Source: Cyanidium caldarium
Taxonomy: Eukaryota; Rhodophyta; Bangiophyceae; Cyanidiales; Cyanidiaceae
Assembly: GCA_026184775.1 (NCBI GenBank)
Contig: JANCYW010000016.1
Location: forward strand, 242,986-306,985
DNA length: 64,000 nucleotides
Direction: 5' to 3'
A program made the position numbers and the translations under genes. Every line of letters begins with the position of its first letter. The first letter of the stretch is position 1. The notes beneath the pieces were generated by a model. It was not told the DNA's origin, did no database searches, and saw nothing but the letters and a program-made list of their open reading frames with translations. Below are positions 3,601 to 15,350 of this stretch, piece by piece.

Positions 3601-6600
3601 ATGAGCGACAGGAATGAGATGTCGGACGGGACACCTTCTTCGGACGAGGAGCGCGTGGAGGTGAGTGACGGGCGGATGCGGGAAGCGGCGGCGGACATTG
3701 GGTCATCACTTCACCCCGAGGCGGAGGAGTTTGCTTTCGGGGCGCGCGACGAGTCGGATTCCCACGAGGTGCAACCGGCGGCGGACATTGCCTCCTCGCC
3801 GCACCCCGAGGCGGAGGAGTTTGCTTTCGGGGCGCGCGACGAGTCGGATTCCCACGAGGTGCAACCGGCGGCGGACAGTGCTTCCTCGCCGCACCCCGAG
3901 GCGGAGGATTCGATTGTCGCGGCGCCAGAGGATTCCGATCCCGACGATATATCTGCGCTACAGAATGGCGCGGCGACGCGCTCCGTCCCCTCCATGGTCA
4001 ACGCTTCCTACTTCACGTACGGTACGTCGGGCGTCGGCCGCACCGACTATCATCGATATCTGCAGACGCGGTGGTCCCAGAACGGCGCTGAAGAGGGAGA
4101 TGCGGCACCGTACACGCGAGCCGAGCTGCCGGAGACGCACGCCAACGTGGTGTCGCGGTGGACGTTCTGGTGGTTCGAGTCGCTGGTGTGGCGCGGCTGG
4201 CGGCGCCCGCTCGAGGACTCGGACCTGTACGATATGATCGCCGACGACAAGGCGGAGCTGCTCTCGCAGCGCTTCCAAAAGGCCTGGCGGGAGTATATGG
4301 CCCGCGAACCGGAGCGCATGGAGAAGCGCCGACGGCGGTTGTTGAAGAAGATGATGCGGCGGCAACGACGACCTCGCCAAGACGGCGACGGCGACGAGCC
4401 ACTGCCCGACATTGACGAGGAACAGTTGCGCTCCCGGTGGCCGATGTTTTGGGTGTTGTTTCGCGTGCATCGGCGCATCATTATCGTGACGGCCATTCTC
4501 AAGTTCTTCGACGTCGGTCTGGGACAGATCTCGCCCATCTTTGTGAACTACTTTCTGACGTGGCTGGAGACGCCAGGCGCGCCCCGCTCGGTGGGCTTTC
4601 TGTGGGCGCTGGCGATCTTCTTGTCGCCGTTCCTCAAGGCGTTCGTGGAGAACCAGTACTACTACCTGGCGTTTCGGTTGGCGGTGCGCGTCCGCGGCGA
4701 GGTGCAGTCGACGGTGTACGACAAGTCGCTGGCGCTGAGTCCGGGGGCACGTGCCCAGACCACCACCGGCGAGGTGGTGAACCACATGCAGCTGGATGCG
4801 CAACGTCTCAGCGATTTCATGCAGTACTCGCAGACGCTGTGGGCGGGGCTGCTGCAGATCGCCGCCTCGTTGACGCTGCTGATCGTGTACCTCGGCTACA
4901 GCGGCCTGATCGGATTCGGGCTGGCGCTGCTTCTCGTGCCGCTGCAGGCGTACCTGGTGAAGCTGCTGTCGGCGTTTCGCAGTTTGACGTTCGGTTTCAC
5001 CGACCGGCGCGTCAAGCTACTCAACGAGATGTTCCAGGGCGTCAAGGCGATGAAGCTGTACGCGTGGGAGGAGCCGCTGTGCGACAAGGTGACCGGCATT
5101 CGGGAGCAGGAACTGGCGGCGTATCGGCGGACGGTGCTGATGCGCACGCTGTTCTACGTAGTGCTGTTCGTGATGCCGACGCTGGTGACCGCGGGCACTT
5201 TTGGCTTTTACGGCGGCGTGTTTCGCAACACGCTGAATCCGGCGAACATCTTCGCGGCGCTGACCGTGCTGAACAATCTGCGCTTCCCGCTGATCATGTA
5301 TCCGTTCGTGATCACGGCGCTTGTGGACGCGCGGCTCGGGGTGATGCGACTACAACGCTTCCTGGCGCTGGAGGAGATTGAGAAACGCCAGCGCACCAGT
5401 GAGGACGGTGTGAAAGGGAGTGTCGATGCTGACGACGGCGATGAAGAGGATGAGGGGGAGCTGGACTTGAAGGGCGATGGCGTGCGCAAACCGGCCAGTA
5501 TGCCGATACTGCCGACCCGCAGCGGCGACGGTGGAGTGGCGGCGTTGCGAGTCAGCCGCGACCTGCTGGCCGATCGGGCGCGAACTGCGGGCGTGATGGC
5601 GGACGAGGGCGACAGAGTGACGCCCTCCGCCTCGGACAGCGCCGGGCGACCTAGCACCAGCAGCACCGACAGCAGTGCGAAGGGCGCGGAGACTGCGAAA
5701 ATCAAGGGCTCGTTGGCGGCGCTGCGCCCGTCATCGGATGACGGCCGGGACGCTATTGTGGTACGCGATGCCACGTTCGAGTGGAGCGTCCAACGCACCG
5801 TGCCGATCGCGCCGGTGGTGCACAACGTTGCCGCGGCCGTGCCCCGGTGGCGGCGCTGTCTGCCGTCGTGGCTACCATGGATCGGACGACCGCGGCCGCC
5901 GAGCGGCCCGCGTGAAAAGCGCCTGGTGGAGCTCACCGTGGCGGTGCCCAAAGTGTCGCTGCGCGTACCGCGCGGTGCCCTGGTGGGCATTGTGGGCCGC
6001 GTCGGCTCCGGCAAGTCGTCGCTGATCTCAGGGCTGCTGGGCGACCTGCGTCGCGCCTCCGGCAGCGTCACCGTGCACGGCTCCATAGCGTATGCCGCCC
6101 AGAACGCCTGGATCTACAACGGCACCGTGCGCGACAACATCCTCTTCGGCTTGCCTTACGACGAGAAGTGGTATCGGCGCGCAGTGTACGTCAGCGCGCT
6201 CAACGCCGATTTGGACATGCTGCCGGCCGGCGACCTGACCGAGATCGGCGAGAAGGGCATCAACCTGAGCGGCGGCCAGAAACAGCGGGTGAGCGTGGCG
6301 CGGCTGGTGTATGCGCGGGCCGACGTGAACGTGCTGGACGACCCGCTGTCGGCGCTGGATGCGCATGTGGGCGCGCACGTGTTCGAAAAGGTGCTGTCCA
6401 GCGAGCGCGGCGTGTTGCGCCACCGGACGCGCGTGCTGGTGACCAACCACCTGCAGGTGGTGTCGCGCTGCGACTGGGTGGTGGTGATGGAGGCGGGCCA
6501 GGTGGTGGCGCAGGGCCCGTGGCACCAACTGATGCACGATTCGTCGGCGTTTCGGGAGATGATGGCGGCGCTGCATGCGTCGGAGAAGCGGGAGGGGGAG

Positions 6601-14069: not shown

Positions 14070-15350
14070 ATGAACAACCGCGTCGTCCTGTTTTCGCTGT
14101 TTGTCCTGTGCCTGCTGCAGGCGTGGGTCGCACCGGCGGCCGCCGGCAACACCTGCATCTACTCGTGCGTGTCGCCCACCGCCCCGCCGACAATCATAAG
14201 CGTCTCTACTTGCAGCGATGGCTGCACCAAGACGGCGCTGTGTCCCGACTCTACGAGCTTCAGCTCTGTGTGCACCTCGGAGTCGCTGCCCTCCGGCACT
14301 GTGACCGGCAGCCTGCAGAGCCAGTACTCGTACAACGCTTCTCACTGCCCGAGCACGCTCACCGTGAAGGACGTCAAGCTGCCGTACATCAACGCATCGA
14401 CGCTATGCGGCTATTCCTGCTGTAACGAGACCTTCTACCTCAACACCGGAACGAGCCGGACCTTTAGTTTCTCGAACTATTCCTTCGTTTTCACCGGGCT
14501 GGCGGGCAACGTGCCACTCTCCTGCGTGGAGCCGGAGGGCCCCACGCCATCCTTCTACCTGTCGGCGAGCGCCGTGCCAACCTTCTTCGTGCCGGAGGCG
14601 GTCTTTGGGGTGGCTTTCTTCTCAAGCTTCAACAACCAGCCGATCTTCTCGCAACAGTTGGTATACGGCATCAGTTCGAACGAGACGGTATGCGTGTACT
14701 CGATCAGCAGTAGCAGTGGAGGGGGAAGCAGCAATTGCTTCCCGCCCGATGCGGGGATTGCTACGTCGGTGGATGGTACGCAGTCGGTTCCGCTGAGTGC
14801 GATCGATGTCGGCGATGCTGTCGTGGGCGTGCGTGACGATGGCAAGCTCGTGCCTGACACCGTCATCGGGTGGATGCACCGCGAGCCGGACGCCGTGGCC
14901 GAGTTTATCGAGTTGCAACTCGACGACGCGCGTACGCTCCGTGCCACTGGAGAGCACCTGGTGTATGCGGCCACCGGTGCGGATGGCGCCTTCAGTGCCT
15001 ACCGCGCCGTGTATGCCAAGCACGTCGCCGTCGGCCAGCACCTCTACGACGCTCGTCGTCAGACTGCCGCGCGCGTCGTTCACAAACACATCAGCACGCG
15101 TCGTGGCCTTTACGCGCCGCTCACCCGCACTGGACGTATGATGGTGGACGGCGTCGTGGTCTCGTGCTATGGCTCGTTCCCGTCACACACCGTCGCGCAC
15201 TGGTCTTTGGCACCGGCTCGTGTGACGGTAATGCGTCGCCTCTTCCGCGGCGCGTTCGGACCGAGCGGCAGTCACGGTATCATGGGCTATGCCAAGGCGC
15301 TGTATCACGTGTGGCAGGCACTTCCGTGGATGACCGCCAGCCACGCGTGA
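14070..15350 (+). CDS. Secreted Hog protein: novel Cys-rich N-domain plus Hedgehog-type Hint autoprocessing domain
   Basis: 426 residues from ATG at 14070. A clear signal peptide (VVLFSLFVLCLLQAWVAPAAA) precedes a domain of about 195 residues with 12 cysteines and several N-glycosylation sequons, which I do not recognise. After a Ser/Gly linker, Cys223 opens a Hint domain: CFPPDAGIATSV, then DVGDAVVGVRDDGK, then TGEHLVYAA with the T-x-x-H pair (Thr293, His296). The second half has VDGVVVSCYGSFPSHTVAHW (Cys366), matching the Hedgehog VLASCYA...H..AH block, and the end (GIMGYAKALYHVWQALPW) resembles the Hedgehog C-terminal sterol-recognition stretch. The residue aligned with the Hedgehog cholesterolysis Asp is His270. 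Hog domains cleave at the Cys and transfer the N-domain to a nucleophile. An intein is unlikely, as no C-extein follows. Confidence 0.85.
   Translation: MNNRVVLFSLFVLCLLQAWVAPAAAGNTCIYSCVSPTAPPTIISVSTCSDGCTKTALCPDSTSFSSVCTSESLPSGTVTGSLQSQYSYNASHCPSTLTVKDVKLPYINASTLCGYSCCNETFYLNTGTSRTFSFSNYSFVFTGLAGNVPLSCVEPEGPTPSFYLSASAVPTFFVPEAVFGVAFFSSFNNQPIFSQQLVYGISSNETVCVYSISSSSGGGSSNCFPPDAGIATSVDGTQSVPLSAIDVGDAVVGVRDDGKLVPDTVIGWMHREPDAVAEFIELQLDDARTLRATGEHLVYAATGADGAFSAYRAVYAKHVAVGQHLYDARRQTAARVVHKHISTRRGLYAPLTRTGRMMVDGVVVSCYGSFPSHTVAHWSLAPARVTVMRRLFRGAFGPSGSHGIMGYAKALYHVWQALPWMTASHA

Follow-up and report, generated by a model that had tools for sequence, protein, structure and literature searches.

A non-Hedgehog Hog protein with a natural histidine at Hint position 46 in the red alga Cyanidium caldarium

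Introduction

Which chemistry might a Hedgehog-type self-processing domain perform in a unicellular red alga when the residue at its lipid-activating position differs from that of animals? This question is raised by a gene at 14070..15350 of a 64,000-nucleotide stretch of Cyanidium caldarium DNA (assembly GCA_026184775.1, contig JANCYW010000016.1, positions 242,986 to 306,985 of the forward strand; this whole stretch is hereafter the window), whose product carries a Hog domain, that is, a Hint fold followed by a sterol-recognition-type region, with a histidine at Hint position 46. In Hedgehog proteins this position is an aspartate that activates cholesterol (PMC13060885; papers are cited here for the accessible parts of their texts), while the man-made fly variant D303H kept its structure and activity and accepted a wider range of sterols (PMC9163320).

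A preliminary description of the locus had presented a Hog protein as unexpected outside animals, a view that the literature does not sustain. In 2008 Burglin reported Hog proteins in five red-algal species (four genera), mosses, alveolates and others, many of them with conserved cysteines in the N-part and a signal peptide where the start was certain (PMC2362128); the accessible main text of that survey is without Cyanidium, Cyanidioschyzon and Galdieria. For Cyanidiophyceae, Cho 2023 described the kelch, trefoil and Hint genes of Cyanidiales (PMC9812998), and a 2026 Plant Cell paper counted three 'non-Hh Hog' genes in Cd. caldarium, two of the three being haploid-dominant, which two not being specified in the accessible text (PMC13353863). 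The C. caldarium genome (8,787,356 bases in 20 contigs) gave three Pfam Hint matches, namely the window gene and one gene each on contigs C1 and C4, which fits the published count; the kind of protein is thus already known in print, and the window gene itself has very probably been counted there too.

Results

The window gene encodes a Hog domain behind an orphan, cysteine-rich N-domain

A Pfam Hint match (PF01079) was found at residues 218-416 (E 3.2e-38; 131.9 bits against a cut-off of 29.7), and phmmer against the PDB returned the chain 6TD6_B, 'Protein hedgehog' (E 4.1e-16), with Hedgehogs as the exclusive sequence matches at E<=0.01. Structure prediction gave a Hint fold for residues 221-370, with block predicted local distance difference test (pLDDT) scores of 83-96 except for 63 at residues 301-310, and a fold search placed 6TYY (fly D303H) at the top, tied with the wild type 1AT0. 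The preliminary claim of a genuine Hog domain is borne out by both approaches, neither of which gave a contrary result, and we regard the assignment as secure. An intein was considered and rejected, as 6TYY and 1AT0 outrank every intein among the best 50 fold matches listed and the intein_Nterm profile scored 14.7 bits, below its cut-off of 24.5. The gene and its parts are as follows.

14070..15350, + strand: whole coding sequence with stop, from an ATG open reading frame (ORF); N-domain plus Hog domain, 426 residues
14070..14147, + strand: likely signal peptide, residues 1-26 (cleavage site placed by eye); Kyte-Doolittle mean 2.42 over residues 5-19, modelled helix 3-24
14148..14735, + strand: orphan N-domain, residues 27-222; 12 cysteines, 5 N-glycosylation sequons and a Ser/Gly-rich stretch ahead of Cys223; model pLDDT <50
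14736..15173, + strand: Hint fold, residues 223-368
14736..14738, + strand: Cys223 at Hint position 1, aligned with Hedgehog Cys1; predicted to act as nucleophile in the N-S acyl shift
14877..14879, + strand: His270 (codon CAC) at Hint position 46 by alignment; Asp in animal Hedgehog (fly D303)
14946..14957, + strand: T-x-x-H motif by alignment, Thr293 and His296
15165..15167, + strand: Cys366 of the SCY motif, by alignment
15174..15347, + strand: sterol-recognition-type region, residues 369-426, by model and alignment; H377/P382/R384 helix, short loop, second helix
15276..15290, + strand: hinge GIMGY by alignment, residues 403-407, in the second sterol-region helix

The Cys223-Phe-Pro, T293/H296 and Cys366 motifs lie exactly where they had first been read, followed by H377, P382 and R384, and the Hog profile and fold, the catalytic residues, His46 and the sterol-region motifs are established by computation. 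The 76 in-frame residues ahead of the ATG hold no methionine. Secretion, as first proposed, is likely: the N-terminus is hydrophobic, closes with AAA-G and resembles a signal peptide. Twelve cysteines fall within residues 29-208; beyond these the protein has Cys223, Cys366 and a leader cysteine, Cys14. This N-domain belongs to no known family, in keeping with the original reading: a Pfam scan of the whole protein to E 1 returned Hint, one weak ABATE match (262-339) and nothing else, so that neither the Hedge signalling domain PF01085 nor any N-domain match was found, and a trefoil or kelch N-domain gained no support. The protein shares with the animal Hedgehog C-terminal domain (fly 1AT0, human Sonic hedgehog, hSHH) the fold, Cys1, T-x-x-H, SCY and the H/P/R of the sterol region, but departs from the animal-type cholesterolysis domain in having His270 for Asp46 and GIMGY for the HWY hinge.

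Histidine at position 46 is found in several algal Hog domains

To place this histidine, 13 Hog domains were aligned, three from C. caldarium and ten from protein searches; P0004, 'CDCA_CDCA01G0096 [Cyanidium caldarium]', is the same sequence as the C1 ORF and was left out. Histidine occupies position 46 in ten rows (the window protein, P0002, P0003, P0005 to P0010 and P0012), six of which are close kelch-Hog relatives; this is no census, because in two of the three protein searches scoring was limited to those candidates (7995 and 7997) with the most words in common. The three Asp46 rows are C4, C1 and P0011, the last of which also has a Hedge domain. Their second sterol helices read GLHWY, GLHRY and GVHWY, whereas none of the nine His46 rows with letters at the hinge has a histidine there. 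A five-row His46 query of viral and prokaryote collections gave 33 and 41 pattern matches, respectively, and no relatives at E<=1e-3.

The engineered fly domain matches the window protein in both fold and histidine position, but is man-made, and its crystal lacks the sterol region and contains just the Hint part. The window protein scored 43.4 bits against the D303H chain versus 39.0 against the wild-type chain, and the C4 paralogue 30.6 versus 33.3, a shift that may partly reflect the lengths of the two chains (146 and 145 residues).

In a tree built without the trait columns, which has several long branches, the window protein grouped with the kelch-Hogs of Cyanidiococcus and Cyanidioschyzon (support 98/96), and a single clade of the three C. 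caldarium Hogs was rejected (p 0.003, in a post hoc test selected with the first tree at hand). These kelch-Hogs ('similar to hedgehog protein'; Cyanidioschyzon merolae, Cyanidiococcus yangmingshanensis) share with it the Hog branch, His46 and a comparable hinge, GIMPY or GMMPY in all six rows, but differ in an N-part of kelch repeats with a Thr/Pro-rich linker. Burglin's non-Hedgehog Hogs are alike in that a novel N-part, often bearing cysteines and a signal peptide, precedes Hint and a sterol-type region (PMC2362128). One weak point of the Asp/His pattern is the Asp46 grouping, supported at 95/93 with the trait columns versus 75/82 without them and on another alignment. Because a single change at residue 46 on the tree suffices, leaving one independent pair (sign test p 1), any coupling of the hinge to residue 46 is a hypothesis without independent support.

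Histidine-based release of a lipid-modified N-domain is the preferred reading

We consider it reasonably probable that this non-Hedgehog Hog protein would release its secreted N-domain as a lipid ester by His270-based chemistry, the lipid most likely being the alga's own sterol; lipid transfer with histidine as the base is likely. In the scheme that we infer, which spans secretion, cleavage, the histidine base, the sterol adduct, surface anchoring and any biological role, the precursor would enter the secretory pathway, rearrangement in the Hint domain would convert the Asn222-Cys223 bond to a thioester, and this would be attacked by a lipid alcohol bound in the C-terminal helix-loop-helix and deprotonated by His270 in place of the Hedgehog Asp46. 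The cysteine-rich, probably glycosylated N-domain would thereby be freed with a lipid ester on its C-terminus and kept at the cell surface. The lipid would most likely be an algal 3-beta-hydroxysterol of the ergosterol or 24-ethyl type. A squalene/oxidosqualene-cyclase-type gene is present in the genome, ergosterol derivatives and 24-ethylsterols have been reported from C. caldarium (PMC8172173), and the broader sterol tolerance of the engineered His46 domain would, by analogy, be compatible with a non-cholesterol substrate.

Several observations weigh against this reading. The residue preceding Cys1 is Asn, where Hedgehog has Gly, and in a by-eye comparison with hSHH, W372 corresponds to Val375, the hinge His and Trp to Met and Gly, and the helix-1 leucines L382, L386 and L390 to Val, Arg and Arg, so that sterol binding or its site could be changed, perhaps lost. 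The sterol-region helices were modelled at residues 373-379, 381-393 and 405-417 with low confidence (block pLDDT 43-75). Patched (PF02460) and sterol-sensing (PF12349) profiles gave no genome match at E<=0.001 in a six-frame search blind to introns, so that a Dispatched-like releaser is not evident, and as two Asp46 Hogs are encoded in the same cell, sterol type alone cannot account for His46.

The absent hinge His-Trp, the more basic helix 1 and the Asn at -1 would also suit self-cleavage alone, in which the thioester would be hydrolysed, the N-domain freed without lipid, and the sterol-type region retained as a membrane or folding element. Vertebrate D46A domains are faster with dithiothreitol while their cholesterol activity is unmeasurable (PMC13060885), which indicates that thioester formation does not require residue 46. 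We nevertheless judge this alternative unlikely, given that H377, P382 and R384 are invariant in all 13 rows, 12 of which also retain Tyr407 of the second helix (P0003 has a gap), and that the fly His46 domain still takes cholesterol (PMC9163320). Replacement of hinge residues implicated in cholesterol handling by hSHH could instead point to an adduct other than sterol, whereby another lipid alcohol, a glycan or a wall hydroxyl would yield an ester-linked surface protein; the nematode Hog adduct was likewise left open (PMC2362128). This we hold to be improbable, as the sterol-type motifs and the predicted helix-loop-helix are retained and haploid C. caldarium cells are wall-less (PMC13353863).

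The Asp46 paralogues are paired with N-domain-only genes

The C1 and C4 Hog proteins have a common N-domain (inside a 38% match over 436-440 columns) that is unlike the window N-domain. Directly upstream of each, on the same strand, lies a secreted-looking gene encoding an N-domain of this type but no Hog domain.

C1, L016 2190-3128: N-domain-only gene, 312 residues
C1, L016 3531-5135: N-domain plus Hog gene, beyond a 402-base spacer
C4, L017 1895-2995: N-domain-only gene, 366 residues
C4, L017 3356-4831: N-domain plus Hog gene, beyond a 360-base spacer

Neither spacer is long enough for a Hog domain. Searching both with all 13 Hogs turned up nothing beyond weak, short matches, the best of which (E 0.004 in a tiny search space) lay on the opposite strand. 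The shared N-domain is without a Pfam match, and its model, built from four sequences (mean pLDDT 55.4), gave no PDB match at E<=0.001, the best being 0.035. The pairing goes unmentioned in the accessible parts of the Cyanidiophyceae literature. It resembles the nematode warthog and groundhog families with their wart-only and ground-like genes (PMC2362128), which differ in that the C1/C4 N-domains match no Pfam family and the window gene has no N-domain-only relative, no other copy of its N-domain having been found in the genome at E<=10. The C4 pair is flanked on both sides by secreted-looking proteins (L017 659-1336, - strand, and 5022-5687, + strand) that are 46% identical over 169 residues and without a Pfam match.

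None of the three genes is near a contig end: the C1 gene lies at ~183 kb of 837 kb, the C4 gene at ~77 kb of 551 kb, and the window gene ~49 kb from the end of contig C16, which coincides with the window end (306,985). The mean subtelomere is given as 6.7-11.8 kb (PMC9812998). The window gene stands in an ordinary setting, the six neighbouring ORFs scanned being an SRP54-type GTPase, a clathrin-adaptor small chain, PRA1, a PHD finger, NUDIX and a scramblase.

On contig C7, ~2 kb from the contig end in repeat-rich sequence, lies a broken fragment (L008 2052-2243), 75 residues from a Hog C-terminus, that stops short of position 46. It shares 41 of 75 aligned residues with the window protein and appears to be a relic of a close relative. 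An ORF on the same contig (L008 4510-6072, + strand) has two CxxC pairs near its C-terminal third and may encode a transposase-related zinc-ribbon protein.

This broken relative, together with the kelch-Hint fusions of sister genera that were not found in Cyanidium according to the accessible text of PMC9812998, would fit an inactive window domain left over from a family being lost in C. caldarium. Such an outcome is very improbable, with a frame open over 426 codons, Cys1, T-x-x-H and SCY all in place, and two of the three Hog genes of the species haploid-dominant (PMC13353863).

Discussion

What is new here is a naturally occurring version of a module already known, and how much this counts depends on whether His46 has already been noted elsewhere. 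The accessible parts of the D46H/D303H literature (PMC8529194, PMC9599816, PMC9163320) contain no natural His46, only the man-made fly variant. The accessible text of Burglin is silent on residue 46, but its alignment figures could already show the histidine (PMC2362128). We found no test in the literature of sterol transfer by a non-animal Hog protein. Nematode Hog proteins may carry histidine at position 46; if so, only the algal spread of His46 is new.

A tentative extension is that there are two old eukaryotic Hog classes, an Asp46/GxHxY class that includes animal Hedgehog and an algal His46 class, with a histidine general base and a re-shaped hinge, that would esterify secreted proteins to non-cholesterol sterols. 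C. caldarium may have kept both, and the window protein could then be a surface protein anchored by a phytosterol, perhaps belonging to the haploid phase, which is wall-less. The mating role first suggested is conceivable, two of the three Hog genes of the species being haploid-dominant (PMC13353863).

The natural histidine at the catalytic site is the same swap that chemists engineered in fly Hedgehog. An alga that can be transformed, has sterols other than cholesterol and naturally carries a His46 Hog would offer a clean test of whether this chemistry predates animals, whether it can use other sterols and whether evolution had already made the engineered base swap, with the Asp46 paralogues of the same genome as built-in controls.
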